From: Bacteroidia bacterium | GTDB lineage: Bacteria; Bacteroidota; Bacteroidia; Chitinophagales; JAUHXS01 | Length of the DNA stretch: 64,000 nt | Reading direction: 5' to 3' | Assembly (NCBI GenBank): GCA_030426955.1 | Contig: JAUHXS010000002.1 | Location: 62,001 to 126,000, forward strand | Shown here: positions 1 through 19,694 of the stretch, piece after piece | How the letters are laid out: each line of letters begins with the position of its first letter | Numbering within the stretch: the stretch's first letter is position 1 | Notes under the pieces: generated by a model | What the model saw: only the letters and a program-made list of their open reading frames with translations | Told to the model about the DNA's origin: nothing | Database searches by the model: none | Position numbers and translations under genes: made by a program

Positions 1-965
1 ATCCAAATTAAAGTAAAGAATAAAAAGCCCGTTATTGATGGAGTGATTGAAGTTTTTTGATAAATCTCTTTTATTTTATTGATTTGATTTTGTTGCCAAT
101 GTTTAGCAATTACTGGATAAGAAATGAGATTAATCGCCTTTCTAGGTATTTCTATAACAGTTCCTATATATGCTGCTATTACATAAATTCCAGTTGTCTT
201 CAGCCCCAGTATAGATGATACCATCCAAGTGTCAATTTTAATTATTATAGTACTTGAAATAGCTCCAAGTGCTAGAAATAGAGAAAACTTAATCGATTCT
301 GGTAATAGGGGGTTGTTGTAAATTGAAGAAAATGAAGCAACTAACTTTAGTTCTGTGCTTAAACGATATGTGTATACAATCAAAATTATTAGTGAAGCTA
401 AGTAAATACACAGATAAATAGATATGAATTTATCTAAGCTATATTTCTGCCAAAAATAGGTAGTAATTAGAATAACTATACCTACTCTAATGAATACATC
501 TGATAAGAATTTGGGTATTGTAATCCGAAAATAAGATTTCGAAATGGCAGTAAAAATGTCTTGTAAGATAAATATTAGAATAAATGCATATAAGTAATTT
601 TTATATTCAAATAGAAGACTTGATTTTTCTTTAAATGAGGATAATATTAAATCATTAAACTGGTATAGCAAAAGTGCTGTAATGGAGAAAACCATTAGGC
701 TTGCGTAAATACATAAAGATAAAAATTCAGTTAATCCTTTCTTATCTGATGAAAAATACGAAAAGTATTTTGTAATTGAGCCTGGAATACCTAAAAGAGC
801 AATAGTTGAGATTAAAATAGAGATATCAATTAGTAGCCTAATTAGTCCAATTTCTTCAGGTGCTAGCATTGCAGGATAGACAGCTAAAACATTAACGGCC
901 CCTAAGGCAATTCCCAAATATGAAATTAATGTGGACTTTACTCCTTGTCTTTGTATGACCCCCAA
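1..965 (-). CDS. Polysaccharide flippase (Wzx-like), 3' part cut by window edge
   Basis: This frame stays open from a TTG at 965 down to base 1, so the C-terminal part of the protein lies outside the window. The predicted start reads (M)GVIQRQGVKST followed by a long series of hydrophobic helices, including LISYLGIALGAVNVLAVYPAM and an EEIGLIRLL stretch. This is the usual beginning of Bacteroidota oligosaccharide flippases of the MATE/Wzx superfamily, which move lipid-linked glycans across the inner membrane. I chose TTG because an in-frame TAA lies eight codons upstream and no ATG precedes the conserved start. It begins 22 bases after the PhyH-type gene and is the last visible gene of the minus-strand glycan locus. 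It is a second flippase, distinct from the one at 36005-37420. The family call is fairly secure; the substrate is inferred from context. Confidence 0.8.
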   Translation of the reverse strand, partial: MGVIQRQGVKSTLISYLGIALGAVNVLAVYPAMLAPEEIGLIRLLIDISILISTIALLGIPGSITKYFSYFSSDKKGLTEFLSLCIYASLMVFSITALLLYQFNDLILSSFKEKSSLLFEYKNYLYAFILIFILQDIFTAISKSYFRITIPKFLSDVFIRVGIVILITTYFWQKYSLDKFISIYLCIYLASLIILIVYTYRLSTELKLVASFSSIYNNPLLPESIKFSLFLALGAISSTIIIKIDTWMVSSILGLKTTGIYVIAAYIGTVIEIPRKAINLISYPVIAKHWQQNQINKIKEIYQKTSITPSITGFLFFTLIW

Positions 966-986: not shown

Positions 987-1742
987 TTAGTATAGATGAT
1001 TTCGAGAGATCAGTTTTGTAAAGAAGTTATTTATATTCCTAATGTACGAGTGTTGAGTATCATAGATACTTGTATGCGATCTAAATATAAGTCTTTGGGA
1101 TTTGTCATCTTCTAAGTTTCCGCCACAATGAAAAATATCGCTATCAAAAATTACCATGGTTCCTCGTGTTCCTTCTATTGGAATTACATCTTTTTGACCT
1201 ATTGCAAGGTCAGGGTAATCTATTTCTATTCTATTCTTTACAGAAGCATACTTTTTTGTTTTATGCCAAGCCTCTTTTCGCAATTTGTTTCCTAGTGAGT
1301 GAGAGCCAGGGATACAGCTAAAGGCACCATTGTTTTTATATACATCAGTAATGTAAAACATGAACTTAATGGTTCGGTCTCGATCAAAATGTAAATAACC
1401 ATTTCTTTCTGGAGTGTCTGTTTTTTTATATTCATAAGTAATGTAAGCACCATCGACCTTGCTCCTTTGATTATTAGTATATTGGCTAATAATATTATTG
1501 ACCCAGTGGTTATCGAATAAGTTATATAATTCTTTATATGTTTTTAAAAGAGATAACCTGTTTATCTGAACAGCTTCCCCGAATAAATAACTATTTTGCT
1601 TAAAATTTTTTAAAACTTCTCTAGCTTCTTTTTCAATCTTGGATACATTGGTTATGTAGTTGGGTAACACAGCAATTCCCTTCTCTCTTAATAATAAAAG
1701 TATCCCCTCTATATCATTCTTATCTGAAAACAGGTCACTCAT
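987..1742 (-). CDS. PhyH-family Fe(II)/2-oxoglutarate dioxygenase
   Basis: This 251-residue protein looks like a phytanoyl-CoA dioxygenase (PhyH) family enzyme. Such enzymes use Fe(II), 2-oxoglutarate and O2 to hydroxylate small substrates in the cytoplasm. The facial triad is visible: H118 and D120 in YLHFDRD, and H205 in DSDIFHCGG, followed by arginines at 217 and 221 that could hold 2-oxoglutarate. IPGSH near residue 144 is also typical of the family. Its start overlaps the end of the SGNH gene by 8 bases, so the two are probably translationally coupled. In a glycan locus the likely substrate is a sugar, a sugar nucleotide or an acyl decoration, but the sequence does not say which. Family assignment is good; the substrate is unknown. 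Confidence 0.75.
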   Translation of the reverse strand: MSDLFSDKNDIEGILLLLREKGIAVLPNYITNVSKIEKEAREVLKNFKQNSYLFGEAVQINRLSLLKTYKELYNLFDNHWVNNIISQYTNNQRSKVDGAYITYEYKKTDTPERNGYLHFDRDRTIKFMFYITDVYKNNGAFSCIPGSHSLGNKLRKEAWHKTKKYASVKNRIEIDYPDLAIGQKDVIPIEGTRGTMVIFDSDIFHCGGNLEDDKSQRLIFRSHTSIYDTQHSYIRNINNFFTKLISRNHLY

Positions 1743-3078
1743 TTTTAATATTTAATATGGGTCTATGAAAGAAAATTTTTACGATATCTACTTTAAGGAC
1801 TTTAAATAAAGATAAAAATAAAAAGCTTATACCCTTATAAAGAGCCCATCTGATTGAGCTGTTTTTTTTTGATAAGACAAGAGAATGATATTCAATATTA
1901 TCTTCAAAAAAATTACGCATTAATGGCAGTTCTCTTTTTTTATATCCATTTTGTAAAAATAACGAGACTACATCATCCAATATTGTTTTAGAAATAATTG
2001 CAAACACCTCCTTCCTTGTGTTATTCATTAAGTTTGTTATTTCATGGGTACTATTAATAGATTTTATCGTAGTAAATGATACATCAGAAAATTCTCTATT
2101 ACTGCAATATTCGATCTTTCTTTTTCTTAAAAAAAAGTTTAATCTATTACTAGCTTGTATATTGTCTTCATTTTTTTCAATGTTTTTTACATTCGTAATT
2201 GAAAAACCTGCTAATATGTGATTTATGTATCCTTCTCTTGCGTTATCTACTAAGTAGATCATTTTTTTAGAGCTTGCCAGGTAATGCATTCGGAGGTATA
2301 GTAAAAAGTAAAACACATTCCAGTAAACAGCCTTAGATTTATCAAAACGTTTTTTCTTTTCGCCCTTTGCAATTATTAGTTCCCTCGCTGGAATGTCGCC
2401 CCATATGCCAATGGTATTACCGTTGATGGTATATTTATAAAAATAGTTCCAAAAGTATTTTGAATAGTGACTTTCAAATAAGGCGCCTTTAAGTAAAGAT
2501 TTTATTTTAGCTATAACAATTTTGTCTACTTTTTCATTAAGGTGTACGAAGTCTGCTTTGTAATAATTTTTAACAATACCAGATTTTTTATCAATTAAAT
2601 CATCCCAAATATTTATGAAAAAAGTATCCTGTGCTTTTAAGCAATATTGTTCTAAAACATTGTTATAAAGCCTTGCTAGTTTATTGTGGTTGAGCCTTTC
2701 CGTTGGAACAGAATTGTATATAATTAACTTAAAATCAAACTCTGATTTTATTTTTTTTATTACATCAACGTAGTTAAGTGCAGCTTTCTTGATTACCTCC
2801 TCATTTGAGTATGATTTGTATAATTGATGTGTATTAAAACGATTTTCGAGATGATGTCTGATATCAGGTTCTCCCAAAACGAGCATAATGGGTTTTCTTA
2901 AATCCAGTCTCTTAATGCTTTCATATAGTTTTGCATAAGTTTTGTTTTTTTTTTCTTTGGTAAGAAAACATGTATCAATCCCTGCTCCAATGCAGATTGG
3001 AAAGAAAAAAGTATTGTAACAAAAACTTCTAGTATGGCTATCTCCTAATACATTTATATAGTAGTCATTTTGACTCAT
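1735..3078 (-). CDS. SGNH-hydrolase-like domain protein with unknown C-terminal domain
   Basis: The N-terminal half (about residues 1-200) carries SGNH/GDSL landmarks: GDSHT at residues 12-16 with the candidate nucleophile serine, an EPDIRHH segment near residue 70, and DFVHLN near residue 178 that could give the catalytic Asp and His. No signal peptide is visible, so it should act in the cytoplasm. The C-terminal half begins near NGNTIGIWGDIPAREL and looks like an alpha/beta domain that I do not recognise. SGNH enzymes in glycan loci often add or remove acyl groups. The gene sits between a GT-B-like transferase and a PhyH-type oxygenase and overlaps the latter. The SGNH call is moderate and the reaction is not determined. 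Confidence 0.5.
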   Translation of the reverse strand: MSQNDYYINVLGDSHTRSFCYNTFFFPICIGAGIDTCFLTKEKKNKTYAKLYESIKRLDLRKPIMLVLGEPDIRHHLENRFNTHQLYKSYSNEEVIKKAALNYVDVIKKIKSEFDFKLIIYNSVPTERLNHNKLARLYNNVLEQYCLKAQDTFFINIWDDLIDKKSGIVKNYYKADFVHLNEKVDKIVIAKIKSLLKGALFESHYSKYFWNYFYKYTINGNTIGIWGDIPARELIIAKGEKKKRFDKSKAVYWNVFYFLLYLRMHYLASSKKMIYLVDNAREGYINHILAGFSITNVKNIEKNEDNIQASNRLNFFLRKRKIEYCSNREFSDVSFTTIKSINSTHEITNLMNNTRKEVFAIISKTILDDVVSLFLQNGYKKRELPLMRNFFEDNIEYHSLVLSKKNSSIRWALYKGISFLFLSLFKVLKVDIVKIFFHRPILNIKNE

Positions 3079-3100: not shown

Positions 3101-4948
3101 TCAAGATATGCTCGTAATAAATTCAAGGTATCTATCTGTTGTTTTTCCATCAATTTTAAAACTTCTTCTTCTAACGTACTCTTCAATTTCATAGCTATTT
3201 GTAATGTGGGGTTGGTCGATTAACATTCTTGCATTTGCTAATAAGTCTTTATAATTTGTTACCTTGATCCCAACATTATCTTTTATGTAGCCTTGTCTAT
3301 CCTTATTTTCAGGGTCGTAAACTAGCAATGGTTTCTTAAAGTATATAGCCTCTGTACCGACTGTGCTGTAATAAGTGAGTACTACATCACTTATAGCTAG
3401 TAATCTATATAGCTCCGTAGAAGACAGTATGTAATTACTCGTATCTAATTCTGATGCTATCTGACTTAAATAGCTTAGTTTTTTGTCATTTGGATGAGGC
3501 TTGAGTATGAATTGAACCTCTGGAAGTTCTTTTGATAGTTTTAGAAACAGTCTAGTTAGTAATAAGATATTGTCTTTTTCAGATGTCACTGGGGGCTGTG
3601 CTGCATATAAAATTGTTGGACGTGTGTTATCTAAGGCAGAAATGACATCGCTCTTTTTTAATTTATGTAGCATTGGTATTGAGTCTGTTCGACAGTGTCC
3701 CAGAGCTTTTAACTGGGAGGGTTTGTAAATAGAACAATTAGATAGCATTCTATTCGTATAAGTACCTCTTGTAATAGTATAATCTGGGATAGGGTTAAAT
3801 ACACTATCTCTTTTAGAAAAAATATAGTTGATATTTAGATTATTAATTCCTCCATGTTGAATTCCATAAGTATTAACTCTTAACCTTTTTGCTGCTTCAA
3901 GTATGGGTCTGTTTTTTATAGTATGCTCATCTTCTCCGCCAATTGACTTAAGTTCGTTGAACTGTCTAAGCATTATATGAGCAGCATGCTCGCGTAAGTA
4001 GGCTAGTCTTACTGTGTTGGATGCTTGTTTGGCCAACTGTATTATAAACTTTTGTTCTTTGTTAGAAGTATTCTTTTCTATTTTTTGTAAGGTGCTATGA
4101 AAGGATTTTTTTATTTTCTTTGATCTAGTATTTATATTCCTGAAGTTTAATAATGCCATTAAAACAAATACTTCAAAGTTCATTTTTCTGTTATAAAACC
4201 TAAAATCAAAAATACTTTGTAGCGAGAATTTATTAATAGTTGAACTTGAACCTTTTGGCGGTGGCGATGGCAATTCGCTCAATAAAATAAATTTTTTGTT
4301 TTTTGCAACCTTCTCGAAAAGGTATTCAATCAAGGGATCTCCTTTTTTGATATTCCCCGTTTTAAAGTCAATGACATTTTGTCTATTAAATGGATTGGTA
4401 AACACAATATATTTGGCAGACTGGTTGAGCCTAATTAGTTGAAAGCATCCAAGGCAGGCCCTAAGTATAAAGCTTACCAAATATCGGAACTTAGATAATA
4501 TTTGCCACTGATCTTTAGGTGGGTAAAGGGAACAATTAGAGTGATTTAATAAACTTTTATCAAAAGAAAAAGAACTGTATATGGCGATATGTTTGTATGT
4601 GAGCTTATTGCTGTCAAGTAGGCAGTTTACAAGATTAATCTGTCTTAGGTTTGATGTATAAAGATTGAATAATTTATGGCGAATGTAGTACCACGCATTA
4701 AAAGAATCAAAAGTTAAGTGATCTATTAGCTTTTTTTTGTTAAAGATTGAGTGCCCTAATTCATTGATATATTCTAAAGCATCCTTTTCTATTTTCGTTA
4801 TAAGTTCGGTACGTTGAGAAAAATATCTGAATCTTGGATAGGTTTGAGAATATCTTTGAATAGATGTGAAAATATCCAAATCTTCAGTAGAAAGTAGATT
4901 CTTTAACTCCTTAGTTGATAGTTCTCTTAAAACTATTGCTAAATTCAT
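3101..4948 (-). CDS. GT-B-like surface-glycan transferase
   Basis: This is a soluble 615-residue protein with an extended N-terminal region. Its C-terminal half resembles capsule and teichoic-acid type GT-B enzymes. Landmarks are YGIQHGGINN (about residue 362), FILKPHPND (about 492), VVLTYYSTVGTEA (about 531) and KPLLVYDPENKDRQGY. These correspond to the nucleotide and phosphate binding loops of CDP-glycerol phosphotransferase-like and capsule transferases. Its start codon abuts the stop of the DapA-like gene with no spacer, so it belongs to the same operon as neuA and neuB. The simplest inference is that it transfers the CMP-activated sugar made by its neighbours. A polyol-phosphate transferase is the main alternative. 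Confidence 0.55.
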   Translation of the reverse strand: MNLAIVLRELSTKELKNLLSTEDLDIFTSIQRYSQTYPRFRYFSQRTELITKIEKDALEYINELGHSIFNKKKLIDHLTFDSFNAWYYIRHKLFNLYTSNLRQINLVNCLLDSNKLTYKHIAIYSSFSFDKSLLNHSNCSLYPPKDQWQILSKFRYLVSFILRACLGCFQLIRLNQSAKYIVFTNPFNRQNVIDFKTGNIKKGDPLIEYLFEKVAKNKKFILLSELPSPPPKGSSSTINKFSLQSIFDFRFYNRKMNFEVFVLMALLNFRNINTRSKKIKKSFHSTLQKIEKNTSNKEQKFIIQLAKQASNTVRLAYLREHAAHIMLRQFNELKSIGGEDEHTIKNRPILEAAKRLRVNTYGIQHGGINNLNINYIFSKRDSVFNPIPDYTITRGTYTNRMLSNCSIYKPSQLKALGHCRTDSIPMLHKLKKSDVISALDNTRPTILYAAQPPVTSEKDNILLLTRLFLKLSKELPEVQFILKPHPNDKKLSYLSQIASELDTSNYILSSTELYRLLAISDVVLTYYSTVGTEAIYFKKPLLVYDPENKDRQGYIKDNVGIKVTNYKDLLANARMLIDQPHITNSYEIEEYVRRRSFKIDGKTTDRYLEFITSIS

Positions 4949-5902
4949 TTATTCTAAGACTTGCTCTAAGGGGAGTGCCTTCATAAGAGTTCTAACTTCC
5001 TGTGTATCTTTATCATTTAGTGCCAACATTGGTAACCTTTCATGTCTTGACATTATAGACAAGCTTTCAAGAGCGGCCTTAATGGTTAAGTGCCATCCGA
5101 ATTTTTTAACGCCATGATCGAAAAATGGAACTTCTATTTTATTTATAATATTCATATATTTTTCCTTTTCTCCCACTTGATACCACTCCCAAAATTTTAC
5201 AGCCAACCTAGGATCAAATACGCCAATTCCATTCAGCCAACTTTGACATCCAATATCGGCAAACCGAAGCCATTGTCTCTTGCCTCCTCCAGAGATGATT
5301 ATGGCAGTTCTATCACTTATTTTCTCGATTACTTTCTTTGAAAATTCATCATCCTTCGCATCTTCCTTTACGGCAACTATATTGGGGATATCTGCAAGCC
5401 TATCTAAGAGATCTATATCGTAATTTACAGGAGGACCACCATATCCGCTAAGAAAAGGCATTTCATGAACCAAAATTCCAATTTCTGAATTGGAAGCAAT
5501 ATAATTAAAGTGGTTATATACTTGATCATTAGAATAATACTTCTCTCGGCAAATGATAGATATTATGTCTGCACCACTCTCTTTAGCATGGTTTGCAAAT
5601 TCCGTGGATACTTTAGTTGGGCAATGTAACGGATCTGCCACGATCATTATATTATCCTTATTTAAAGACTTAACTTTTTGAGCTACAAACTTATTTAGTG
5701 CTTTTATCTCGTCCCAAGACAACTCACTAAAGCGACTGTTATATCCCATAACATAGAAATTTCTACCGCCAGAATTATAAATTAACTCTACATAGTTTTC
5801 AAGTGCGTCCCAATTTATGGCGTCGTCCTCGGGCTTAAAAGGAGTAATAATTGAAAAAACAGGACCTTTAATTCTGTCTTTTAGGTTTGAAAAATTGCTC
5901 AT
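4949..5902 (-). CDS. DapA/NanA-family class I aldolase homologue with altered active site
   Basis: Length (317 residues) and layout match the dihydrodipicolinate synthase / N-acetylneuraminate lyase family, a TIM barrel that forms a Schiff base with pyruvate. The lysine is present as K179 in IVAVKEDAKDD. Other hallmarks are changed. The usual G-T-T-G-E loop reads MGYNSRFSE at residues 52-60, with Y54 and N55 where two threonines are expected. The usual Y-N-x-P segment reads LVHEMPF, placing H146 where the catalytic tyrosine normally sits. It lies between the NeuA-type gene and the transferase, so it probably works on the same nonulosonic sugar pathway rather than on lysine synthesis. It may be a diverged aldolase or a non-aldol enzyme on the same scaffold. 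Confidence 0.75.
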   Translation of the reverse strand: MSNFSNLKDRIKGPVFSIITPFKPEDDAINWDALENYVELIYNSGGRNFYVMGYNSRFSELSWDEIKALNKFVAQKVKSLNKDNIMIVADPLHCPTKVSTEFANHAKESGADIISIICREKYYSNDQVYNHFNYIASNSEIGILVHEMPFLSGYGGPPVNYDIDLLDRLADIPNIVAVKEDAKDDEFSKKVIEKISDRTAIIISGGGKRQWLRFADIGCQSWLNGIGVFDPRLAVKFWEWYQVGEKEKYMNIINKIEVPFFDHGVKKFGWHLTIKAALESLSIMSRHERLPMLALNDKDTQEVRTLMKALPLEQVLE

Positions 5903-5909
5903 GAATTAG

Positions 5910-6617
5910 TTATATTTTGATGTGATTATTCTTTAAAAGATATTCTGCTAAAAGAAAATCTTTTTCATTATCAATGTCGACACAGTTATCGGGAGGCATC
6001 TCGTATCCTTTTACAATTCCTTGAAAGAAATTATCTTTAGTTATAAACTTATCTAACCAAGCTATATAAAACCCACCATTAACTCGATAGTATTTGTCGA
6101 AGTCTTGAGACCTAGTATTTCCAGTAATTAGCGGAGAGGGGTTTATTAGTGCATTTGGATTTATAACTTTTTGACCATCTAGTGTTAAAGTAAGTTGGAC
6201 AGGTTCTTGCATCTCGTTTATACTTACTACAGAGAAATCTTCCTTTTGAAGCATAGAAAAACCTTCTTTTATATGCTTAGAAGTCCTAAAGGGACAGGTG
6301 GGTAAAAATAATCCAATGGCATCATACTGTTCGCTATAAGAAGGGCGGTCAGCTATCTGTTTAATCAAATCTATTACCTTAGAAGTATCTGAGGCTAGAG
6401 CAGGTTCTCTTTTTTCAATGGTAATTTCGTCATAATGCGTTCCTACCTCTAGAATCTCATCATCATCAGAAGAAAGAATTATAGTGTCAAATATGTTGCT
6501 TTCAATGACTGCCTCAATGGTATAGCCTATTAAAGGTTTGCCACATAGCTTTTTTATATTTTTTCTCGGAAGCCTTTTCGAACCACCTCTTGCAGGAATT
6601 ATAGCTAAATTCTTCAT
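5910..6617 (-). CDS. neuA: Acylneuraminate (nonulosonate) cytidylyltransferase
   Basis: This 235-residue protein begins MKNLAIIPARGGSKRLPRKN, the diagnostic nucleotide-binding start of CMP-sialic acid synthetases, followed by KPLIGYTIEAV. It also has SSDDDEI near residue 50 and a C-terminal NCVDIDNEKDFLLAE segment, usual for the family. The enzyme couples CTP to a nonulosonic acid (Neu5Ac, KDN, legionaminate or pseudaminate) and releases pyrophosphate. With NeuB (7294-8163) and the HAD phosphatase (8170-8676) it forms a synthesis-activation cassette. The exact sugar cannot be read from the sequence. The gene lies 7 bases before the DapA-like gene in the same operon. Confidence 0.88.
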   Translation of the reverse strand: MKNLAIIPARGGSKRLPRKNIKKLCGKPLIGYTIEAVIESNIFDTIILSSDDDEILEVGTHYDEITIEKREPALASDTSKVIDLIKQIADRPSYSEQYDAIGLFLPTCPFRTSKHIKEGFSMLQKEDFSVVSINEMQEPVQLTLTLDGQKVINPNALINPSPLITGNTRSQDFDKYYRVNGGFYIAWLDKFITKDNFFQGIVKGYEMPPDNCVDIDNEKDFLLAEYLLKNNHIKI

Positions 6618-6625
6618 AACTTGAT

Positions 6626-7288
6626 TTATTCCACAACAGCATAAGTCGGTGTCATGGCAAAAGGAAACTTGTGTAGCGTTATTTTATTATCTTTAAAAAA
6701 TTCATCGACAGCTTTTGTCTCGCCTGGAAAAACACTGTAGTCGTCTAAAATTAAAATCCCTCCCTTTACAATTTTAGGGTATAAATGCTCTAAAATAACT
6801 GTAGCGGGCTCATATACATCAGTATCTAGGTGGAGCATTGCTATCTTGAGCTCTGGATGATCTTTAACATATTTAGGAACGGTTTTTAATATATCACCTT
6901 CAATAAGTTCAATTTTTTGACTCAAAGATTTTTTTGAAAGGATTTCTAAAAGTTGATCTTTACTAATACTGCTGGAACCAGCCTGTTCTATCCACGAAGC
7001 TAATTTGGATTTGTCTTCTTCGTGGTGCGTTTCGGGAAACTTATCAAATATGTCGAATCCGATGATTTGTTTAGTAGATGATCCACCAAACATTTCCCTG
7101 AAATGTGCCCATCTAACTAAAGAACACCCTTTAAATACTCCGCATTCAACAATATGCCCAGGTAATGTTATAATTTTTTTATAAAGTTCATAATGGGCTG
7201 AAAACTTAGCTAGCCTTTGTGTATTACAACTCAGGTAAAAGTTGTTTTCATAATCCCATCTTTTTTTAAAATCAGGTAATTCAATCAT
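6626..7288 (-). CDS. TylF-like SAM-dependent methyltransferase
   Basis: This 220-residue protein matches the TylF/macrocin O-methyltransferase family. The SAM-binding motif is VECGVFKGCS at residues 47-56, followed by FDIFDKFPETHHEED. The acidic metal-site region is HLDTDVYEPA (about residue 153) and ILILDDYSVFPGETKAVDEF follows. Family members usually methylate sugar hydroxyls. It sits between neuB and neuA with gaps of 5 and 8 bases, so it is part of the nonulosonate operon and may O-methylate that sugar or the finished glycan. The substrate is inferred only. Confidence 0.72.
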   Translation of the reverse strand: MIELPDFKKRWDYENNFYLSCNTQRLAKFSAHYELYKKIITLPGHIVECGVFKGCSLVRWAHFREMFGGSSTKQIIGFDIFDKFPETHHEEDKSKLASWIEQAGSSSISKDQLLEILSKKSLSQKIELIEGDILKTVPKYVKDHPELKIAMLHLDTDVYEPATVILEHLYPKIVKGGILILDDYSVFPGETKAVDEFFKDNKITLHKFPFAMTPTYAVVE

Positions 7289-7293
7289 TATAA

Positions 7294-8163
7294 TTAAACT
7301 TTTCTAAGCTTCTCTCTTATCTTAATCTCACTTTCATATACCTTCTTAACCCCATCTCCCAAAGCAAGTTCAATTTCTCGAATATGTTTCATTAATCGAA
7401 TTAGTCCAATTGGCGCTATAGATGCGGCTTGATCTGTCCCCCACATAGCTCGGTCTAATGTGATATGTCTTTCTATTATACACGCACCAAGAGCGACAGC
7501 CGCTACTGTAGTCGGTAGACCTTCTTCGTGTCCTGAATAGCCAATAGGAACATCATATTTTTCCATTAAAGTATTGATCATTTTGAGGTTTAACTCTTCA
7601 CTCGGACAAGGGTATGTACTTGTAGAATGCATTACAATAAGATTATCTAGGCCTATACTAGATATGGTATTGTCAATTTCTTCTGTAGAAGACATACCTG
7701 TTGATAGAATTACTGGAATACCAACATTTTTTTGATATTGAATTAACTCTATATCCGTTAATGATGCAGATGGGATTTTAAAACAAGGGGGAGAGTAGTC
7801 TAAGATGAAATCAACAGATGGTTTATCCCAACATGAAGCGAACCAATCGATTTTTTTCTCCTTACAGTACCTGTCAATTTCGTCGTACTCTTTCTTGCCA
7901 AACTCAATCTTGTGTTTGTAATCTATATAAGAGATATACCCCCATGGTGTTTCTCTCATCTTGCTTTTTTGATGTTCTGGAACACACAGGTCTGGTTCTC
8001 TTTTTTGAAATTTGACTGCATTACAACCTGCCATTACTGCAAGGTCAATCAGTTTTTTTGCCTTATCAATGTCTCCATTATGATTAATACCTATCTCGGC
8101 AATAAAGTATACGGGTTGATTATTGCCTATAGTACTATTGGCTATTTTTACATTCTTTCTCAT
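7294..8163 (-). CDS. neuB: NeuB-type nonulosonic acid synthase lacking the SAF domain
   Basis: The protein has the (beta/alpha)8 barrel of sialic acid synthases, which condense phosphoenolpyruvate with an N-acyl-hexosamine, mannose, or its 6-phosphate. Landmarks are AEIGINHNGD (residues 22-31), AVKFQKR (about 49), STGMSST (about 154), GYSGHE (about 213) and ERHITLDRAMWGTDQAAS (about 232). At 289 residues it stops at the KLRKV linker and has no C-terminal antifreeze-like SAF domain. Classical bacterial NeuB enzymes are near 345 residues and use SAF to cover the active site of the partner subunit. The neighbouring KdsC-like phosphatase suggests a phosphorylated product such as a 9-phosphate. 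Neu5Ac, KDN and other nonulosonates remain possible. Confidence 0.85.
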   Translation of the reverse strand: MRKNVKIANSTIGNNQPVYFIAEIGINHNGDIDKAKKLIDLAVMAGCNAVKFQKREPDLCVPEHQKSKMRETPWGYISYIDYKHKIEFGKKEYDEIDRYCKEKKIDWFASCWDKPSVDFILDYSPPCFKIPSASLTDIELIQYQKNVGIPVILSTGMSSTEEIDNTISSIGLDNLIVMHSTSTYPCPSEELNLKMINTLMEKYDVPIGYSGHEEGLPTTVAAVALGACIIERHITLDRAMWGTDQAASIAPIGLIRLMKHIREIELALGDGVKKVYESEIKIREKLRKV

Positions 8164-8169
8164 AACATC

Positions 8170-8676
8170 TTATTGTTGTGAAGTTATGTTTTTATTATCT
8201 AAAATCATATCACATAACTCCCTAATTGCACCATGTCCACCTTTTTTTCTCAAAACGAGCTTGGCTAATGGAATAACTGAACTGTGGGCATCAGATACTA
8301 CTGTAGGAATACCAACTGCCTTTAGACATTCAGAATCGTTTATATCATTACCAACGTAGCACGTTTCTTGTAAGTTTTGCCCTTTTTTATTGATTATCTT
8401 TTTTAGAAGTTCTATTTTGTTTTCAATAGATTGATAACATTCTATGTTAAGCTTTCTACATCTTGCTGAAACTACAGGATTGGTTTCTTTGGATAAGACC
8501 AATATATCAATATTAGTCTTTTTTCTTAGCAATTCCAGTCCCATTCCATCGCCTCTGTCACACATAACCATTTCTTCACCTTTCTGATTGATGTAAACCT
8601 TATTGTCAGTGAATACACCATCAAAATCAAGAACTAGGGTTTTAATAGATTCTAGTTTGAGTTTAACATCTGTCAT
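8170..8676 (-). CDS. KdsC-like HAD phosphatase, probable nonulosonate-9-phosphate phosphatase
   Basis: This 168-residue capless HAD protein carries LVLDFDGVFTDN with D17 (nucleophile) and D19 (acid/base), a serine in LSKE near residue 62, a lysine in the NKIELLKK segment, and GNDINDSECL with D111 and D114 for Mg2+. The C-terminal KGGHGAIREL tail is typical of KdsC and of the related KDN-9-phosphate phosphatases. It lies 6 bases upstream of neuB. In Bacteroides thetaiotaomicron a phosphatase of this class works with a NeuB-type synthase and a CMP-KDN synthetase. The inference here is dephosphorylation of a nonulosonate 9-phosphate. A KDO-8-phosphate phosphatase is the alternative, but no kdsA is nearby. 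Confidence 0.78.
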   Translation of the reverse strand: MTDVKLKLESIKTLVLDFDGVFTDNKVYINQKGEEMVMCDRGDGMGLELLRKKTNIDILVLSKETNPVVSARCRKLNIECYQSIENKIELLKKIINKKGQNLQETCYVGNDINDSECLKAVGIPTVVSDAHSSVIPLAKLVLRKKGGHGAIRELCDMILDNKNITSQQ

Positions 8677-8716: not shown

Positions 8717-10255
8717 TTACACTCCAAACTCAATCCCCTGAGCCAAAGGTAAGTCTTTTCCCCAGTTAATGGTATTCGTTTGACGTCTCATGTAAGTCTT
8801 CCATGCATCTGATCCTGATTCACGACCACCACCAGTCTCCTTTTCTCCTCCAAAAGCACCACCAATTTCTGCGCCAGAGGTTCCAATGTTTACATTTGCA
8901 ATACCACAGTCAGACCCTTGAGTTGATAGGAATAACTCTGACTCTCTGATGTCTTTTGTCATAATAGCTGAAGATAAACCTTGAGGGACGTTATTCTGAA
9001 TAGCGATAGCTTCATCTAGCGTTTTATATTTCATTATATATAGAATAGGAGCAAACGTTTCGCTGCATACGATCTGGTAATTAGGCTTTACTTCTGCAAT
9101 ACAAGGTTTGACATAACATCCAGATCCGAAGTCTAGTACTGCACCTTCTACGATAAATTTGCCACCTTCGCTTTCTATTGCTTTTAAAGCAGATAAATAG
9201 GTATCAACTGCATCTTTATCTATCAGTGGTCCCATATGATTAGTGGCATCAAGTGGATTGCCAATTTTTATTTGCTGGTAAGCATTTATGAGTCTCGATT
9301 TGACATCATTATAAATTGATTCATGTATAATTACTCTTCTAGTAGAAGTGCATCTTTGTCCCGCTGTCCCAACAGCTCCAAAGACAATACCAGGTATAGC
9401 TAAATTTAAATCCGCATTTTCTGAAATGATCATTGCATTGTTGCCGCCTAGTTCTAGGATTGATTTGCCAAATCTTTCTGCAACAGCCATTCCAACTTTT
9501 TGTCCCATTCGAGTGGATCCAGTTGCTGAAACTAATGGAATTCTTTTGTCATGAGAAATGAGCTCTCCAACTTTATAATCTCCAATAACTAGATTGGATA
9601 ATCCTTCAGGTAAGTTATTCTCTTTAAAGACATCAGCGGCAATTTTTTGACAAGCTATAGCCGTTAAGGGCGTTTTCTCTGAGGGTTTCCAAATGCAAAC
9701 ATTCCCACATACCCATGCAATGGCAGCATTCCAAGCCCAAACAGCAACTGGAAAATTAAAAGCACTTATAATTCCTACGATACCAAGTGGGTGCCACTGC
9801 TCATACATTCTATGATTAGGTCTTTCAGAATGCATGGTCAGTCCATGTAGCTGACGAGATAGACCTACGGCAAAGTCACAAATGTCGATCATTTCTTGAA
9901 CTTCGCCATATCCTTCTTGCAAGCTTTTTCCCATTTCATATGAAACAAGCTGTCCTAAAGGCTCTTTGAATTCTCTTAGTCGATTGCCAAATTGCCTTAC
10001 AATCTCACCACGCTTAGGAGCAGGAAGTAAATGCCATTTTTCAAATGCACTTTGTGCAACATGAATAGTTTTATTATAAAGTTTATCATCGCAAAGTTCA
10101 ACGGATGCAATTTTTTTTCCATCAACAGGAGAGTAAGATGTGACGTTTTCTTTAGAATTATTAGCAAGCCACTCAATTCCGGTAGATGTTCCTTTGTTTT
10201 CTGAAGTTATTCCTAAAGTGGATAGAAGTTCTTCCACGTTAATGACCTGTTGCAT
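8717..10255 (-). CDS. Aldehyde dehydrogenase, ALDH7 (aminoadipate semialdehyde) type
   Basis: This full-length 512-residue NAD(P)-dependent aldehyde dehydrogenase has the catalytic residues N167 (AFNFP), E268 (ILELGGNN) and C302 (GTAGQRCTS). The segments GSTRMGQKVG and GGAFGGEKETGGGRESGSD are characteristic of the ALDH7/antiquitin group, which oxidises alpha-aminoadipate semialdehyde in lysine catabolism. It is 40 bases upstream of the phosphatase gene and 26 bases downstream of a small membrane protein gene. It is probably metabolic and not part of the sugar pathway, though co-transcription is possible. Confidence 0.85.
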   Translation of the reverse strand: MQQVINVEELLSTLGITSENKGTSTGIEWLANNSKENVTSYSPVDGKKIASVELCDDKLYNKTIHVAQSAFEKWHLLPAPKRGEIVRQFGNRLREFKEPLGQLVSYEMGKSLQEGYGEVQEMIDICDFAVGLSRQLHGLTMHSERPNHRMYEQWHPLGIVGIISAFNFPVAVWAWNAAIAWVCGNVCIWKPSEKTPLTAIACQKIAADVFKENNLPEGLSNLVIGDYKVGELISHDKRIPLVSATGSTRMGQKVGMAVAERFGKSILELGGNNAMIISENADLNLAIPGIVFGAVGTAGQRCTSTRRVIIHESIYNDVKSRLINAYQQIKIGNPLDATNHMGPLIDKDAVDTYLSALKAIESEGGKFIVEGAVLDFGSGCYVKPCIAEVKPNYQIVCSETFAPILYIMKYKTLDEAIAIQNNVPQGLSSAIMTKDIRESELFLSTQGSDCGIANVNIGTSGAEIGGAFGGEKETGGGRESGSDAWKTYMRRQTNTINWGKDLPLAQGIEFGV

Positions 10256-13194: not shown

Positions 13195-13233
13195 GTTATA
13201 TTTATGCCTCTTTGAGTATTGACCTACTTTTAC

Positions 13234-16200
13234 ATGAGAATTAAACTGTTTTTTTTATCTCAATTATATATTCTGGCAATATGTCAGTCTGTTTTTGGTC
13301 AAGGCATTAATTTCAAAAACTTTAGTGTAGAGCAAGGGCTAGCACAATCTTATGTCTTAGATATTAACCAAGACGATGATGGCTATTTGTGGTTCTCTAC
13401 TGCAAGTGGCATTAGTCGCTTTGATGGGATAAACTTCAAACATTATTTCAAGCGAGATGGGTTAGCAGAGAATTATACACTATCAGGAATGATAGATAAT
13501 GAAGGTAAAATTTGGTTTGGACACTCCGCTGGGCATATATCTATTCTAAATAGGGTGTCTGATAGTATTACAATCTTTGAACATAAGGCATTTGATAATA
13601 CTAAGGTCGTTTATAAGATTTACCAAGATAGTGAAGGGGTTATTTGGATTGCTACAATTGGTAATGGTGTTTATAGACTAGAAGGAGACTCTTTAAAAAA
13701 TTTTAAAAATGGTTTCTTCGAAAACCATATGGTTTTTGATATCCAGGAAGATAAAAATGGGCATATCTTATTTGCAACAAATGGCGGAATATCAGCACTG
13801 AGAGAAAAAGAGGCTTACCTTGACAGTACCTCATACTTAACTATTGCTTTTAAAGAGGAGTTTTTAAATAGCAGGATTAGAGTTATATCAACAGATCAAA
13901 ATAATGATTTGTGGATTGGTACGGGTAATAGTGGTTTTCATAAACTGATTTATGATGATATCATAAATATTAATAAAGGGAGATATCAGATTAAAAGTTT
14001 TGGTGAGAAGTTCGAGAAAACTGTCATTAGAGATATCCTTAGCGATAAAAAGGGAAACACTTGGATAACTACTAGCGGTTCGGGAGTAATAAAGTACTAT
14101 AGAGATGAGCAAGAAATTGATCATTTGAGGTCATATATGGTTGAAAATAACTTAAGTAATAATAATGCTTGGAGCCTATTGGAGGATAATGAAGGAAATA
14201 TTTGGATAGGAACCCAAGGAGGAGGAGTTTGTAAATACAGTGGTGAACTTTTTGAAAACTATACCATAGATGATGGTTTAGTCGGTAAAAGTGTTTTTAC
14301 AATATTCGAAGATAGTAAGCAGAATTTTTGGATAGGGACTCAAGGCAAAGGAATTTCAGTATTTAAATACAATGAGATTAATGGACTATTAAGCCACTCT
14401 TTTAACCTTACAATGGAGAATGGGTTGTCGAATAATAGGGTAAGGTCAATTATTGAAGACAATCGAGGGAATATCTGGATCGGTTTATGGGGAACTGGGA
14501 TTGATGTATATAACCCTGTGACAAAAACAATTAAAACATATACACATGAAGATGGCTTAAGTGGTATGCACATAAGTGACATTAAGAAAGATACTAGAGG
14601 AAATATATACGTGGCAAACACAAATAGTCTTGACGTTTTTCAGGCGCGCACTAATAGTTTTACCCCTTTTGAAGTAAACGGAAAAAGTATAAATAAGTTT
14701 GTAAGGAGCATTCTATTCGATAAAGAAAACGTTTGGATTGCAACCAACGGATCAGGACTAATGCGTTATGATGGTCAGAAGCTGATCCAGTATGATAAGG
14801 ATAACAGCATTCTTAGTGGTTCTCAGGCTGTTTACTGTTTGGCTGCAGATGGGCAAGGAGGTATTTGGATTGGGACTGGAGGAGAAGGAGTATATAAATA
14901 TAATGGAGAGGAGTTTGAAAACTATACTACAGAAGATGGTTTAGTAAGCGATGAAGTATACATCATCACGACAGACTTCAATGGTAATATTTGGGTAGGA
15001 ACTGCTGCTGGAATGAACAAGATTGATGCGCAAGGTAATATAGATTTTTATGGAAAAAATGAGGGGTTTGGTGGTATCGAGACAAATGTAAATGCAGTAT
15101 TAAAGGATTCAAATAAAAACATGTGGTTTGGGACAATTAAAGGATTTGCAAAATGTGATGTCCGTTATGACAAAATCAATAAAAATGAGCCAATTCTTAA
15201 TATAAAGTCAGTAGAGGTAAAAGATATTGGTATTGTTGTGCCTACTACCCCTGATATTAACTTCTTTCCATATTATGCAAATGAGATTAAATTTAATTGG
15301 ATGGGCATTAGCCATACTTTTCCTGAGAAAGTGTTGTATCAGTTTATGCTAAAAGGAAAAGATGAGGCTTGGCGTCCTGTATCAGATAAAACGGACTTTA
15401 CTTATACCAATCTTGATCCAGGCAACTATAGTTTTATGATCAAGTCATCAAACAGTGATGGTCTTTGGAATGAAGAACCTTCTGTTTATGATTTTGCGAT
15501 TAAAACACCTTGGTATAAAACAATATTTGCCTACTTGCTTTATGTCATGGTTGCAATGCTCATTATATATACTTTTTTCAAGTATAGAATGATGCAGGTC
15601 GAAAAGGAGAAGAAAATATTAGAGGATAAAGTGACCGAAAGAACTGAGGAGTTGGTAAAAGAAAAGAATAAAGTAGAAGACCAGAAAGCAATTATTGAAC
15701 AAAAGAATCAAGATATAACAGATAGTATTCATTATGCCCAGAGAATACAAAAGGCTATTCTTCCTACCACGTCAATAATACAAAAATCACTCAAGGATAC
15801 CTTTGTATTATTCAGACCTAAAGATATCGTTAGTGGCGACTTTTATTGGTTTAAAGAAATAGAAGATAAGGCAATTATTGCTGCAGTGGATTGCACAGGA
15901 CATGGTGTGCCAGGTGGTTTTATGAGTATGATTGGGAATACTATGTTAAATAAAGTAGTTAATGAGTTGGACTTGCCTAAACCATCTGATATCTTATTTA
16001 ACCTTAGAGATGGTGTGATAAAGTCCTTGAATCAAGGAGGTGAAGAGTCAAAAGATGGGATGGATATGTCTCTTTGTGTGTTTCACAAAGAAAAGTTGAA
16101 AGTAGAATATGCTGGAGCATTTAACTCATTGTATCTAGTCAGAAATGGGGAGTTGATAGAAACAAAAGCAGATAAACAACCAATAGGAACCTATTATAGT

Positions 16201-16461
16201 AAAGATGATAAACCATTTACAAATCATGAGATAGATTTGCAAAAAGGAGATGCCATTTATCTATTTTCAGATGGGTATGCTGATCAGTTTGGAGGACCTT
16301 TGGGTAAGAAGTTTCGGTATAAGCAATTCAGAGAATTATTGGTTGGAATTTCCCATGAGTCACCTGAGAACCAAAAGCAAATCTTAAACCAAACCATAGA
16401 AAAGTGGATGGGGGATAAGAAGCAAGTGGATGATATCTTAGTTATCGGTATTAAGGTTTAA
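13234..16461 (+). CDS. Propeller sensor with SpoIIE/PP2C phosphatase output, paralogue 1 (SiaA-like role)
   Basis: I prefer the ATG at 13234 to the TTG at 13219 because it opens directly into a signal peptide ending in VFGQ. The 1075-residue protein then has repeated two-component-regulator propeller blades (G-x-I-W-I-G-T pattern) to about residue 650, a Y_Y_Y domain (about 680-755), one membrane helix (about 760-785), a coiled coil and a SpoIIE-type PP2C domain from about 830. Phosphatase metal-site motifs are SGDFYWF, DCTGHGVPGG, DGMD, FSDGYADQF and VDDIL. No histidine kinase domain is present. A periplasmic signal should control a cytoplasmic Ser/Thr phosphatase, most likely acting on SiaC (20263-20643). 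Confidence 0.88.
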   Translation: MRIKLFFLSQLYILAICQSVFGQGINFKNFSVEQGLAQSYVLDINQDDDGYLWFSTASGISRFDGINFKHYFKRDGLAENYTLSGMIDNEGKIWFGHSAGHISILNRVSDSITIFEHKAFDNTKVVYKIYQDSEGVIWIATIGNGVYRLEGDSLKNFKNGFFENHMVFDIQEDKNGHILFATNGGISALREKEAYLDSTSYLTIAFKEEFLNSRIRVISTDQNNDLWIGTGNSGFHKLIYDDIININKGRYQIKSFGEKFEKTVIRDILSDKKGNTWITTSGSGVIKYYRDEQEIDHLRSYMVENNLSNNNAWSLLEDNEGNIWIGTQGGGVCKYSGELFENYTIDDGLVGKSVFTIFEDSKQNFWIGTQGKGISVFKYNEINGLLSHSFNLTMENGLSNNRVRSIIEDNRGNIWIGLWGTGIDVYNPVTKTIKTYTHEDGLSGMHISDIKKDTRGNIYVANTNSLDVFQARTNSFTPFEVNGKSINKFVRSILFDKENVWIATNGSGLMRYDGQKLIQYDKDNSILSGSQAVYCLAADGQGGIWIGTGGEGVYKYNGEEFENYTTEDGLVSDEVYIITTDFNGNIWVGTAAGMNKIDAQGNIDFYGKNEGFGGIETNVNAVLKDSNKNMWFGTIKGFAKCDVRYDKINKNEPILNIKSVEVKDIGIVVPTTPDINFFPYYANEIKFNWMGISHTFPEKVLYQFMLKGKDEAWRPVSDKTDFTYTNLDPGNYSFMIKSSNSDGLWNEEPSVYDFAIKTPWYKTIFAYLLYVMVAMLIIYTFFKYRMMQVEKEKKILEDKVTERTEELVKEKNKVEDQKAIIEQKNQDITDSIHYAQRIQKAILPTTSIIQKSLKDTFVLFRPKDIVSGDFYWFKEIEDKAIIAAVDCTGHGVPGGFMSMIGNTMLNKVVNELDLPKPSDILFNLRDGVIKSLNQGGEESKDGMDMSLCVFHKEKLKVEYAGAFNSLYLVRNGELIETKADKQPIGTYYSKDDKPFTNHEIDLQKGDAIYLFSDGYADQFGGPLGKKFRYKQFRELLVGISHESPENQKQILNQTIEKWMGDKKQVDDILVIGIKV

Positions 16462-16523
16462 TGTTATCCAATTTAATCTTTATTAATTAAAACACTATCT
16501 TTAGTCGTCAAATTAAGCTTATA

Positions 16524-19500
16524 ATGACGTTGAGGTTATTAAAGATTATTTTCCTATTCTCTTTGTTTAAATTAGGCTATGGCCAGCAATATTTTTTTAA
16601 AAACATTGCTATAGAAGATGGCTTAGTCCAATCTCAAGTAACTGAAATAATTCAAGATCACAGAGGATATCTTTGGTTTGGCACATATGGGGGGATTACA
16701 AGGTATGATGGCAAATTCTTGAAAAACTATACAATCCATGATGGGCTGAAAGACATCTTTATTCACTCTTTTTTGGAAAGTAGCAAGAAAGATTTTTGGG
16801 TAGGGACAAATAAGGGTATACACCGATATGCTAAAGACAGGTTTAATTACGTAGAAAGTGTAGGTGAGAGAGTTGTCAATGATATTAAAGAAGATGTTGA
16901 GGGTAATATTTGGGTAGGAACACCCAAAGGGTTGTTTGTGCTTAGTAATAAGATGGATTCCTCTTGGGAAATTAGCATTTCTAAAAATATTCAACTTGAT
17001 ATTTATGCTCTTGAATTTGTAAGTAAGAACGAATTACTGATAGGCACTAAAAAAAGAGGATTATGGAAACACGATATTAAAAGTGGATCGACAGACAGTT
17101 TCTTATCAATTAAGCCTAATATGACTATTCATGATTTACATAAACTAGATGCTAATAATTTATATGTTGCAACATCCTCAGGGATGTACGTTGTTGGGAA
17201 TGATGGCGAAATAATAGATTCATTTTATCAAAACGTTCAAGTGATTCATATGGAATTTGATGCTGACGCCATTTGTTGGTTGGCAACTAAGGGTAAGGGG
17301 GCAGTGCAGCTAAATTTGAAAAATGGAAATACAATTGAGTTTAATAGAGAAAGTGGATTGGGGAGCGACGAGGTATATAGCATATATCAGGATAGGGAAA
17401 AAAACACATGGATAGGCACGTACGGAGATGGAGTAAGTGTCTTTAATGGATTTAAATTCATAACCTATACTAAGCTTGATGGTTTAAAAAGTGATGGAAT
17501 AGCCTCTATTATAGAGCTGGATCAAAATAATATCATACTAGGAACTACTGAGGCAGGCTTGCAATATTTAAAAAAAGAAGATCAATACGTAGTCTCTGAA
17601 AATCCTTTAATTAAGGCTATAGTGGGCAAAAAGATATGGAGTTCCTTTAAAGATAGTAAAGGGAATTTTTGGTTTGGAACGACAGATGGGGTGTATATAT
17701 ATGATGGTAAGCGAACAGAAAACTATGGTGTAGATAATGGATTTTATAATGATGTTATATATACAATTGAAGAAGATTCAAAGAGAAATATTTGGCTAGG
17801 AACCCAAGTGGGTGCTGTTAGGTATTCTAATGGTAGTTTTGATACATACTTAAAAGAAGATGGATTGCCCGATAATTGGATTTGGGATATATATAATGAT
17901 GACAGTGGTTATGTTTGGTTTAGCACGGGACAAGGTGTTTCTAGATATGACGGAAAATCCTTTAAAACGTTTAGTTCTCCGCAAATAAGCTCTTTGAAAA
18001 GTGATATACTGGCGACAATTCAAGATCGTTGGGGGAATATGTGGTTTGCAAGTTACGGAGGAGGGTTGATTAACTATAATTCTCAGGATAGCACATATAA
18101 GGTTTTTAATACTGCAGATGGATTAAAAGATGCTTCCTTATTGTTAATGACCATTGATAATAATAATAATTTATGGGTAGGACATAGTAAAGGGCTTGAC
18201 AGGTTAGACTTGAAAAGATATTATAATGAAAAGAAACCGACCTTCAATCATTATGGTAAAAATCAAGGATTTGTTGGCATTGAAAGTATCCAAAATGCAG
18301 TATATAAAGATAGGAAAGGTAAGTTGTGGTTTGGGACAATAAAGGGAGTTACTAAGTATGATCCCGATTATGATAGTTATAATCCAATTCCCCCGCAAAC
18401 ATTTATAAAAAATATTACCGTAAATAAGGCAAGCATTGATATAGATTCTAGTGTCCATTTCGAATACAATCAAAACCGATTTACTTTTGAATGGATAGGT
18501 ATTAGCTTAACGGCACCTGAAAAAGTTAAATATCAATTCAAGCTAGAAGGACTAGAAGATGAGTGGAGCCCCATCACTGAAAAAACAGACTTTACCTATT
18601 CAAACCTACCTCATGGTAATTATGTCTTTAAAGTAAAGGCCAGAAATGGTAATGATGTTTGGAATGAACACCCAAGTGTGTATGCATTTACTATAAGGAC
18701 GCCATTCTATCTTGCTTTATGGTTTTGGTTATTATGCTTATTGTCCCTATTTGCAATAATATATGCTTATGTTAAGTATAGAACGATTCAAATAGAGAAA
18801 GAAAAGAAGATTCTTGAAGCAAAAGTTGAAGAGAGAACACAAGAGTTGGTAAAAGAGAAGGAAAAAGTTGAACTAATCAATAAGGAGGTATTGGAGCAAA
18901 AAGAAATTATTGAAGAAAAGAATAAAGATATTACCGATAGCATCAATTATGCAAAGCAAATACAAGATGCAATTCTTCCTGTACAAGAGGTTATTTATAA
19001 GTCTTTTAAAGATGCAGCAATCCTCTTTTTGCCCAAAGATATCGTAAGTGGTGATTTTTATTGGTTTGCAAGGAAAGATGACAAAGCTATTATCGCAGCG
19101 GTAGATTGTACTGGACATGGTGTCCCAGGGGCCTTTATGTCCATGATAGGCAACGACTCCTTAAACCATATAGTAAATCATAATGATATCACTCAACCAG
19201 CTGAGATATTGCATCATTTGCACTTAGCAATTCAAAGAGCCTTGAAGCAAAACAAAGAAGACTCAAGCTCAAGAGATGGTATGGATATAGCATTATGTGC
19301 CTTTGATATTAAGACAAACGTACTTGAGTATGCAGGAGCTTTTCGCCCTCTTTATTTACTAAAAAAGGATACTAAAGAGCTAGAAGAGGTTAAGGGAGAT
19401 AGATGCTCCATCGGTGGATTTCAGGTGGAGGAAGGGGATAGGACTTTTGAAAATCATCGAATAGAACTACAAAAGGGAGATTCTTTTTATATTTTCTCTG

Positions 19501-19694
19501 ATGGCTATGCAGATCAGTTTGGAGGAGAGAGAGGTAAAAAGTTTTTAGCCAAGAGATTTAAAGAGTTAATTATCAATAATTCTGCCAAAAAAATGGAAGA
19601 GCAAGTAGAAATATTTAAAAATAATTTCATAACTTGGCGTGCAAATTATGAGCAGATCGATGACGTTCTGATCATAGGTGTTAAAGTCAGCTAA
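16524..19694 (+). CDS. Propeller sensor with SpoIIE/PP2C phosphatase output, paralogue 2 (SiaA-like role)
   Basis: This 1056-residue paralogue of the preceding gene has the same order: signal peptide ending in GYGQ, propeller repeats to about residue 620, Y_Y_Y domain, membrane helix (about 729-752), coiled coil rich in Lys and Glu, and a SpoIIE phosphatase from about 805. Motifs SGDFYWF, DCTGHGVPGAFMSMIGND, RDGMD and FSDGYADQFGG are intact, so both copies should be active. The phosphatase domains are much more alike than the propellers, which suggests different signals and a shared target. A TATCTTTA element near 16494 resembles a weak Bacteroidota -7 box and could give separate expression. 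siaB follows after 9 bases. Confidence 0.88.
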   Translation: MTLRLLKIIFLFSLFKLGYGQQYFFKNIAIEDGLVQSQVTEIIQDHRGYLWFGTYGGITRYDGKFLKNYTIHDGLKDIFIHSFLESSKKDFWVGTNKGIHRYAKDRFNYVESVGERVVNDIKEDVEGNIWVGTPKGLFVLSNKMDSSWEISISKNIQLDIYALEFVSKNELLIGTKKRGLWKHDIKSGSTDSFLSIKPNMTIHDLHKLDANNLYVATSSGMYVVGNDGEIIDSFYQNVQVIHMEFDADAICWLATKGKGAVQLNLKNGNTIEFNRESGLGSDEVYSIYQDREKNTWIGTYGDGVSVFNGFKFITYTKLDGLKSDGIASIIELDQNNIILGTTEAGLQYLKKEDQYVVSENPLIKAIVGKKIWSSFKDSKGNFWFGTTDGVYIYDGKRTENYGVDNGFYNDVIYTIEEDSKRNIWLGTQVGAVRYSNGSFDTYLKEDGLPDNWIWDIYNDDSGYVWFSTGQGVSRYDGKSFKTFSSPQISSLKSDILATIQDRWGNMWFASYGGGLINYNSQDSTYKVFNTADGLKDASLLLMTIDNNNNLWVGHSKGLDRLDLKRYYNEKKPTFNHYGKNQGFVGIESIQNAVYKDRKGKLWFGTIKGVTKYDPDYDSYNPIPPQTFIKNITVNKASIDIDSSVHFEYNQNRFTFEWIGISLTAPEKVKYQFKLEGLEDEWSPITEKTDFTYSNLPHGNYVFKVKARNGNDVWNEHPSVYAFTIRTPFYLALWFWLLCLLSLFAIIYAYVKYRTIQIEKEKKILEAKVEERTQELVKEKEKVELINKEVLEQKEIIEEKNKDITDSINYAKQIQDAILPVQEVIYKSFKDAAILFLPKDIVSGDFYWFARKDDKAIIAAVDCTGHGVPGAFMSMIGNDSLNHIVNHNDITQPAEILHHLHLAIQRALKQNKEDSSSRDGMDIALCAFDIKTNVLEYAGAFRPLYLLKKDTKELEEVKGDRCSIGGFQVEEGDRTFENHRIELQKGDSFYIFSDGYADQFGGERGKKFLAKRFKELIINNSAKKMEEQVEIFKNNFITWRANYEQIDDVLIIGVKVS

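Follow-up and report, generated by a model that had tools for sequence, protein, structure and literature searches.

DHDPSx, a rare DHDPS/NAL-superfamily protein bound to nonulosonate genes, as a tentative candidate for a C4 dehydratase

The window, which is the whole 64,000-nucleotide stretch of Bacteroidia DNA analyzed here, carries an operon in which a DHDPS/NAL-superfamily protein stands right behind a NeuA-like gene. To our knowledge, the known nonulosonic acid pathways lead from the synthase straight to the CMP-transferase, apart from a phosphatase. What does a protein of this superfamily do among such genes, with an active site that keeps the lysine and has lost the catalytic tyrosine?

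The gene occupies 4949..5902 on the minus strand, starts with ATG and encodes 317 aa, and the opposite, plus-strand frame over the same positions is full of stops. A preliminary description had drawn a gene here; it is a real ORF, to which the present analysis adds the strand. Its start lies 7 nt past the end of the NeuA-like gene (5910-6617) and its stop at 4949 abuts the following ATG at 4948, so the protein, called DHDPSx here, is encoded within a tight operon. A lone mutant, pseudogene or frameshift is rejected because the frame is intact and the same residues recur in 12 relatives.

All on the minus strand, the operon begins with a KdsC-type phosphatase (8170..8676; TIGR01670, 117.5 against a cut-off of 106.95), a 289-aa NeuB-family synthase without SAF domain (7294..8163; PF03102, 251.1 bits, no SAF match), a TylF-type O-methyltransferase (6626..7288; PF05711, 74.6 bits), a NeuA/PseF-like CMP-sugar cytidylyltransferase (5910..6617; PF02348, with TIGR03584 PseF at 157.8 bits, below its cut-off of 205.7) and DHDPSx. 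It continues with a glycosyltransferase-like protein with a BFO_1060-type C-terminal part (3101..4948; NF046086, 53.6 bits, below the cut-off of 200), a protein with no family match that is similar to SGNH-like proteins of other loci (1735..3078; BLAST matches in loci L039, L044 and L047), a PhyH-type Fe/2-oxoglutarate dioxygenase-like protein (987..1742; PF05721, 53.8 bits) and a flippase-like membrane protein, an ORF at the window edge (3..965). The SGNH-like and flippase-like labels are readings of the sequence. Relatives of the TylF-type gene occur in 4 and those of the PhyH-type gene in 5 of the 12 other DHDPSx loci found below.

Left of the window (L105, 13957-16482), the operon ends with an N-acetyl-sugar amidotransferase, HisF2/AglZ and HisH by NCBIfam matches, as for acetamidino sugars. 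None of these three was found in the other 12 loci as sampled. Directly upstream of the operon, at 8717-10255 on the minus strand, lies a piperidine-6-carboxylate dehydrogenase (NF050084, 824.5 bits, over the cut-off), which is probably unrelated housekeeping. At 13219-19694 on the plus strand, two large proteins (1080 and 1056 aa) are encoded next to each other; their translations look alike and have repeat-rich N-terminal halves.

DHDPSx is a TIM barrel of the DHDPS/NAL superfamily. PF00701 matches it with 81.2 bits against a cut-off of 22.1 and covers residues 15-309, nearly the whole length. The AlphaFold2 model (pLDDT 89.2, pTM 0.89) shows the barrel with C-terminal helices, and its confidence is low precisely at residues 55-58 and 151-156. 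The fold search with this model gives TIM-barrel matches with TM of about 0.8; 3d0c aligns by VIA-align over 293 residues with Z 32.0 and rmsd 2.5, and the Z scores are 30.8 for NanA (8u8w) and 30.7 for KdgD (4ur7). Since DapA, KdgD and NanA all fall within Z 30-32, the fold does not choose among them.

The equivalog models do not assign DHDPSx either, as none in NCBIfam scores over its cut-off. The scores are 58.7 bits against 206.15 for dapA, 44.0 against 382 and 48.8 against 281 for two NanA models, and 60.6 against 278 and 51.2 against 373.95 for the KdgD models, the 60.6 bits of NF002958 (KdgD) being the top sub-threshold score. DapA shares the fold and the lysine and gives the best sequence and structure matches, but DHDPSx has lost its relay. 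With the dapA cut-off missed and a separate, stronger PF00701 protein (280.7 bits) elsewhere in the genome, the lysine-pathway DapA is rejected. A second PF00701 protein of at least 266 bits is present in 9 of the 11 host genomes searched, so lysine synthesis is provided for elsewhere.

Relatives of DHDPSx are few. Of 395 genomes of the phylum, only the window's own matched at E ≤ 1e-20, and an order search of 396 genomes at E ≤ 1e-15 returned two, of which one is the window's own and the other a weak match with 27% identity. A genome-contig scan, guided by an alignment with random decoy rows, found 10 loci with proteins of 40-61% identity. Their hosts are Cycloclasticus, Verrucomicrobia (4), Prochlorococcus (2), Bdellovibrionales, Methylophaga and Methylococcaceae. 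Two further contigs, L052 (48% identity) and L053 (44%), came from a viral scan. The hosts represent about five phyla, four from the ten loci and the window's Bacteroidota.

A motif-independent profile built from 11 members finds one copy per host genome in 10 of 10, each with an E value of at most 1e-150, and no further match better than E 5e-24. Among the 251 genomes of a Prochlorococcus family the same profile matches one, and among the 239 of a Verrucomicrobiales order two, all already known. In a tree with 15 other DHDPS proteins, which have long branches among them, the 13 members form one clade with a support of 100/100 and a very long stem, of 3.12 changes per column. Searches of plasmids and phages by tblastn yield nothing beyond relatives of about 25% identity or less, and a plasmid search with the L047 member yields none. 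Four further viral scans contain no relative (34 stretches of one scan checked), and a viral scan for AIKEDAK returned at least 120 stretches, among which those listed include one with a relative, the already known L052.

Thus, the DHDPSx group is sharply bounded, rare and scattered, and its scattered distribution suggests horizontal transfer. In the open-access literature searched, outside which most subscription journals lie, we found no paper that joins DHDPS-family enzymes with nonulosonic acid synthesis. The searches of that literature gave no description of this rare and conserved subfamily, bound to nonulosonate genes.

We compared the active-site residues of the 13 members with those of 15 other DHDPS-family proteins, of which the same host genomes supplied 14 and a Rhizobium plasmid one. 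Lys179 (5366..5368), the presumed Schiff-base lysine, aligns with the family lysine and is K in all 13 and all 15. The catalytic Tyr and the loop Glu, both present in all 15 others, are gone from the members. His146-Glu147 (5462..5467) replaces the Tyr and its neighbor in 13/13, while the others have Tyr in 15/15 and an acid at 147 in 0/15. Asp181 (5360..5362), the acid at Lys+2 and the proposed relocated base, is D in 13/13 and A, S or I in every one of the others. Gly269-Trp270-His271 (5090..5098) replaces the usual Asn-Pro in 13/13, with Trp in none of the 15.

The family's GTTGE loop reads G53-Y54-N55-S56-R57 in the window protein and [GA]YNSR in the subfamily. Y54-N55-S56-R57 (5732..5743) replaces T-T-G-E, with Y54 in the place of the first loop Thr and S56 in that of the loop Gly. 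Each of the four residues is found in 13/13 members and 0/15 others, although 10 of the 13 are the genome loci found by the patterns YVM[GA]YNSR and DPLHCPTK, where YNSR is invariant by selection. The search pattern for L052 and L053 held only part of YNSR, and His146, Glu147, Asp181 and GWH are outside the selecting patterns. The 13 members also agree throughout in Asp90, His93-Cys94 and Glu120, and at position 119, 12 have R and one has K. Insertions of two and about five residues are located near the pocket. These insertions, the acid at Lys+2 and the Tyr and Ser now standing in the loop go beyond the preliminary description.

The two features of the superfamily aldolases (DapA, NanA, KdgA), a Tyr above the lysine and a GXXGE loop, are therefore absent in 13/13. 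The preliminary description had read the window protein alike, with K179 kept, the GTTGE loop rebuilt, His146 at the catalytic Tyr position and the Tyr/Thr relay lost, and the 12 relatives bear it out on all these points. It had named Tyr and Thr at shifted positions as an objection to this reading. That is half true, as the loop now contains both a Tyr (Y54) and a Ser (S56).

DHDPSx belongs with the nonulosonate genes, as the same description held, since a NeuA-like gene adjoins it in 13/13 loci. NeuA-like comes before DHDPSx in seven (window, L039, L040, L041, L042, L044 and L053) and after it in five (L045, L046, L047, L048 and L052), and the two are convergent in L043. A NeuB gene lies near DHDPSx in 12/13, with only a fragment of the fused form in L042, and is of two kinds, either short without SAF or fused to AP_endonuc_2. 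The occurrence of both gene orders and two NeuB kinds indicates a repeated functional linkage. A GMD-like gene stands directly beside NeuB in L040, L044, L047 and L048.

Nine NeuB proteins are fused, and the five scanned contain NeuB and AP_endonuc_2 in 5/5, SAF in 4/5 and CBS in 3/5. Those of L039 (6328-8586), L045 (1172-3424) and L046 (7700-10000) have an N-terminal CBS, a SAF and a C-terminal xylose-isomerase-like AP_endonuc_2 domain with conserved H/D/E. This domain was dropped as a substrate clue because its model has a pLDDT of 74 and its Foldseek matches are a mixture of MbnB, sugar 3-epimerases and endonuclease IV. In one Verrucomicrobiales order, the fusion occurs in 2 of 189 genomes, both with DHDPSx, which are too few to weigh.

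Mirror-tree correlations of DHDPSx with NeuA and NeuB are 0.52 and 0.66 for 12 loci, 0.64 and 0.72 for 11, and 0.73 and 0.88 for 8, in a set that left out L042, which has no whole NeuB. Both correlations beat permutation. They do not decide whether NeuA or NeuB is the travelling partner, and the trend runs against the expected closer NeuA.

Both viral contigs carry genes for a GT29 sialyltransferase-family protein, a SAF-less NeuB, a cupin, a small HAD-like protein, a NeuA-like protein and DHDPSx. The small protein matches phrog_1238 and its HAD label is a sequence reading. Over 4343-9643 of L052 and 5443-9342 of L053, both marine phage contigs, the gene set looks like that of a phage which synthesizes a nonulosonic acid of its own and transfers it. 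The L053 copy was counted for a functional role of DHDPSx since phages seldom keep idle genes.

The contigs would be T4-like, judging from a few genes: a baseplate wedge match on L052 (phrog_219, 2e-20), a weak late sigma factor match on the same contig (phrog_234, 2e-5) and a PhoH-like match on L053. PF07068 has no match in the two viral records, where the controls are silent too.

As to the substrate, NeuB of the window type is common in the phylum, with a match at E ≤ 1e-65 in 123 of 345 genomes including its own. Out of the 122 other genomes matched, 19 loci were examined and a KdsC-type gene lies beside NeuB in 15 of them. NeuB with a KdsC-type neighbor agrees with the way synthase and phosphatase are paired in the KDN pathway. 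In Bacteroides thetaiotaomicron, this pathway consists of the KDN-9-P synthase BT1714, a phosphatase and a CMP-KDN synthetase according to the portions of PMC6200933 compared, and the window, likened by gene types, also has a synthase, a KdsC-type phosphatase and a CMP-transferase. Unlike the window operon, the pathway as told in those portions includes no DHDPS-family step.

The KDN-9-P phosphatase model (NF058599), with its cut-off of 180, scores 105.7 on the window protein and 159.9 and 142.9 on two from related loci, all below. The amidotransferase, HisF2/AglZ and HisH genes suggest that the glycan includes an N-acetylated sugar at some point, which speaks against KDN alone. With these genes in the operon and the phosphatase model below its cut-off, we do not claim KDN as the certain substrate.

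A superfamily member with comparable changes is L-2-keto-3-deoxyarabonate dehydratase (KdaD or LPDHT; PDB 7C0C-7C0E), in which the Tyr is lost and the GXXG motif replaced. The parts of PMC9795676 and PMC13398020 that concern it list the residues A51-N52-F53-S54-E55, Q144-D145, K172-I173-E174 and G259-W260, and describe that the Glu at Lys+2 deprotonates C3 while the carboxylate is bound by Q144 and the backbone of the loop. The DHDPSx counterparts are [GA]-Y-N-S-R, H146-E147, K179-E180-D181 and G269-W270, a likeness read from the published residue lists and not from an alignment. Both are DHDPS/NAL-family proteins with the Schiff-base Lys and a lost Tyr, and in both the GXXGE loop is replaced and has Ser where the second Gly would be. 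They share also an acid after the lost Tyr, an acid at Lys+2 and Gly-Trp in the pocket. The loop Ser, the two acids and Trp270 are found in 13/13 DHDPSx and 0/15 others.

The differences are His for Gln, Asp for Glu and Arg57 for Glu55. Moreover, KdaD has a second base at E200/E201, of which E201 takes the C5 proton in the same accounts, whereas DHDPSx has GGGK or variants with no conserved acid, so the later proton steps would differ. KdaD serves pentose catabolism, whereas DHDPSx is in a nonulosonate operon. Neither the 60 best sequence matches nor the 50 fold rows listed include an entry recognized as KdaD, although KdgD 4ur7 is among the latter, and an absence from the VIA-align rows listed is not evidence of a different fold. 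Among all loci sampled, no KdaD-like loop was found.

KdgD (5-keto-4-deoxyglucarate dehydratase, 4UR7) is a C4 dehydratase of the same superfamily, but unlike DHDPSx it keeps Tyr141 and GGTGE, as given in the relevant part of PMC13398020. A further divergent DHDPS-family protein, of 308 aa in frame 1 of L078 (Verrucomicrobiales), matches PF00701 with 33.3 bits and has the loop GGNANFYH and K-Y-A at the lysine.

Our preferred reading, a tentative one, is that DHDPSx performs a committed step on a nonulosonic-acid-type substrate between NeuB with the phosphatase and the NeuA-like enzyme, namely C4 dehydration via a relocated base. As its changes parallel those of KdaD, deprotonation at C3 of a Schiff base with loss of the C4 hydroxyl is favored over aldol cleavage. 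With KdaD-like changes at the same places, Asp181 is read as the base, and His146 and the loop as carboxylate holders. The preliminary description had suggested a different reaction on the nonulosonate, by chain extension, dehydration or decarboxylation. Dehydration is the best supported of the three by the KdaD-like changes, and nothing points to the other two.

In the proposed mechanism, the C1 carboxylate would be held by the rebuilt loop (the Y54/N55 backbone and perhaps Arg57) and by His146. Asp181 would take the C3 proton in the lost tyrosine's stead, and the C4 hydroxyl would leave as in KdaD, instead of cleavage of the C3-C4 bond. This would yield a ulosonic acid deoxygenated at C4 (3,4-dideoxy, possibly 5-keto), which the NeuA-like enzyme would activate with CMP. 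No reductase family match of Pfam or NCBIfam was seen among the window operon genes, so a 5-keto product would need a reductase from elsewhere. Points that speak against a KdaD-like mechanism are the lack of a second base, the loop Arg and the origin of the likeness in residue lists. Directly observed are the fold, the retained lysine, the invariant replacements, the clade and the gene linkage, whereas the Schiff base, the order of steps and the reaction itself are inferred.

Alternatively, DHDPSx could be a biosynthetic aldolase with changed partners. It would couple a sugar aldehyde with pyruvate or a different 2-oxo acid, or replace the pyruvate unit by another, to yield a different chain or a branched ulosonic acid. 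The superfamily fold and the Schiff-base lysine are kept, the superfamily consists mostly of aldolases in the portions of PMC13398020 compared, and the rebuilt carboxylate loop could suit another 2-oxo acid. However, the Tyr/Thr relay of aldolases is lost in 13/13, and the C-C bond is already made by NeuB, which is present in all loci (in one as a fragment). We regard an aldolase as unlikely.

A C4 epimerase would act via retro-aldol/aldol or dehydration/rehydration on the Schiff base to give a 4-epi nonulosonic acid. It would need no redox partner, and 2-keto-3-deoxygluconate aldolases of the superfamily accept both C4 epimers, as reported in the part of PMC9795676 compared. Yet no sequence feature points specifically to epimerization and none of the superfamily accounts, in the portions compared, describes such an epimerase, which we take to be quite unlikely.

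It is improbable that DHDPSx is a nonulosonate lyase whose residues have changed and which serves in quality control or salvage. NanA has the superfamily, the fold, the lysine and the sugar-acid context in common with DHDPSx, and P-F-L-S-G after His146 resembles the P-A-L-S-G motif of the NanA loop. On the other hand, DHDPSx scores far below both NCBIfam NanA cut-offs, the Tyr is absent in 13/13, and a lyase placed between NeuB and NeuA would undo NeuB's work. The NanA Tyr137 and the Ser47/Thr48 carboxylate site, as given in the part of PMC3014015 compared, are replaced in DHDPSx.

We infer the substrate of DHDPSx, and the PhyH-type and TylF-type genes in some of its loci show other modifications there, but a role outside ulosonates, making a glycan precursor or substituent from another small metabolite, is very doubtful in view of the lysine kept in 13/13 and the closer tie to NeuA (13/13) than to the PhyH-type and TylF-type genes.

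In summary, the probable role of DHDPSx is an undescribed step in the synthesis of an unusual acidic sugar of the cell surface. It is possible, if somewhat doubtful, that it represents a third core enzyme of nonulosonic acid synthesis, a Schiff-base DHDPS/NAL dehydratase that would remove the C4 hydroxyl of the NeuB product before CMP activation and so provide an undescribed class of 4-deoxy (3,4-dideoxy) ulosonic acids in scattered bacteria of about five phyla and in marine phages that appear T4-like. The pathway genes together with a sialyltransferase-family gene on the phage contigs suggest that phages bring the pathway along. If the extra enzyme is true, there would be acidic surface sugars that are missed by structure prediction from gene content. 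The superfamily would also have a second, perhaps independent, case of the Tyr loss and the Lys+2 acid gain with a shift from aldol chemistry.
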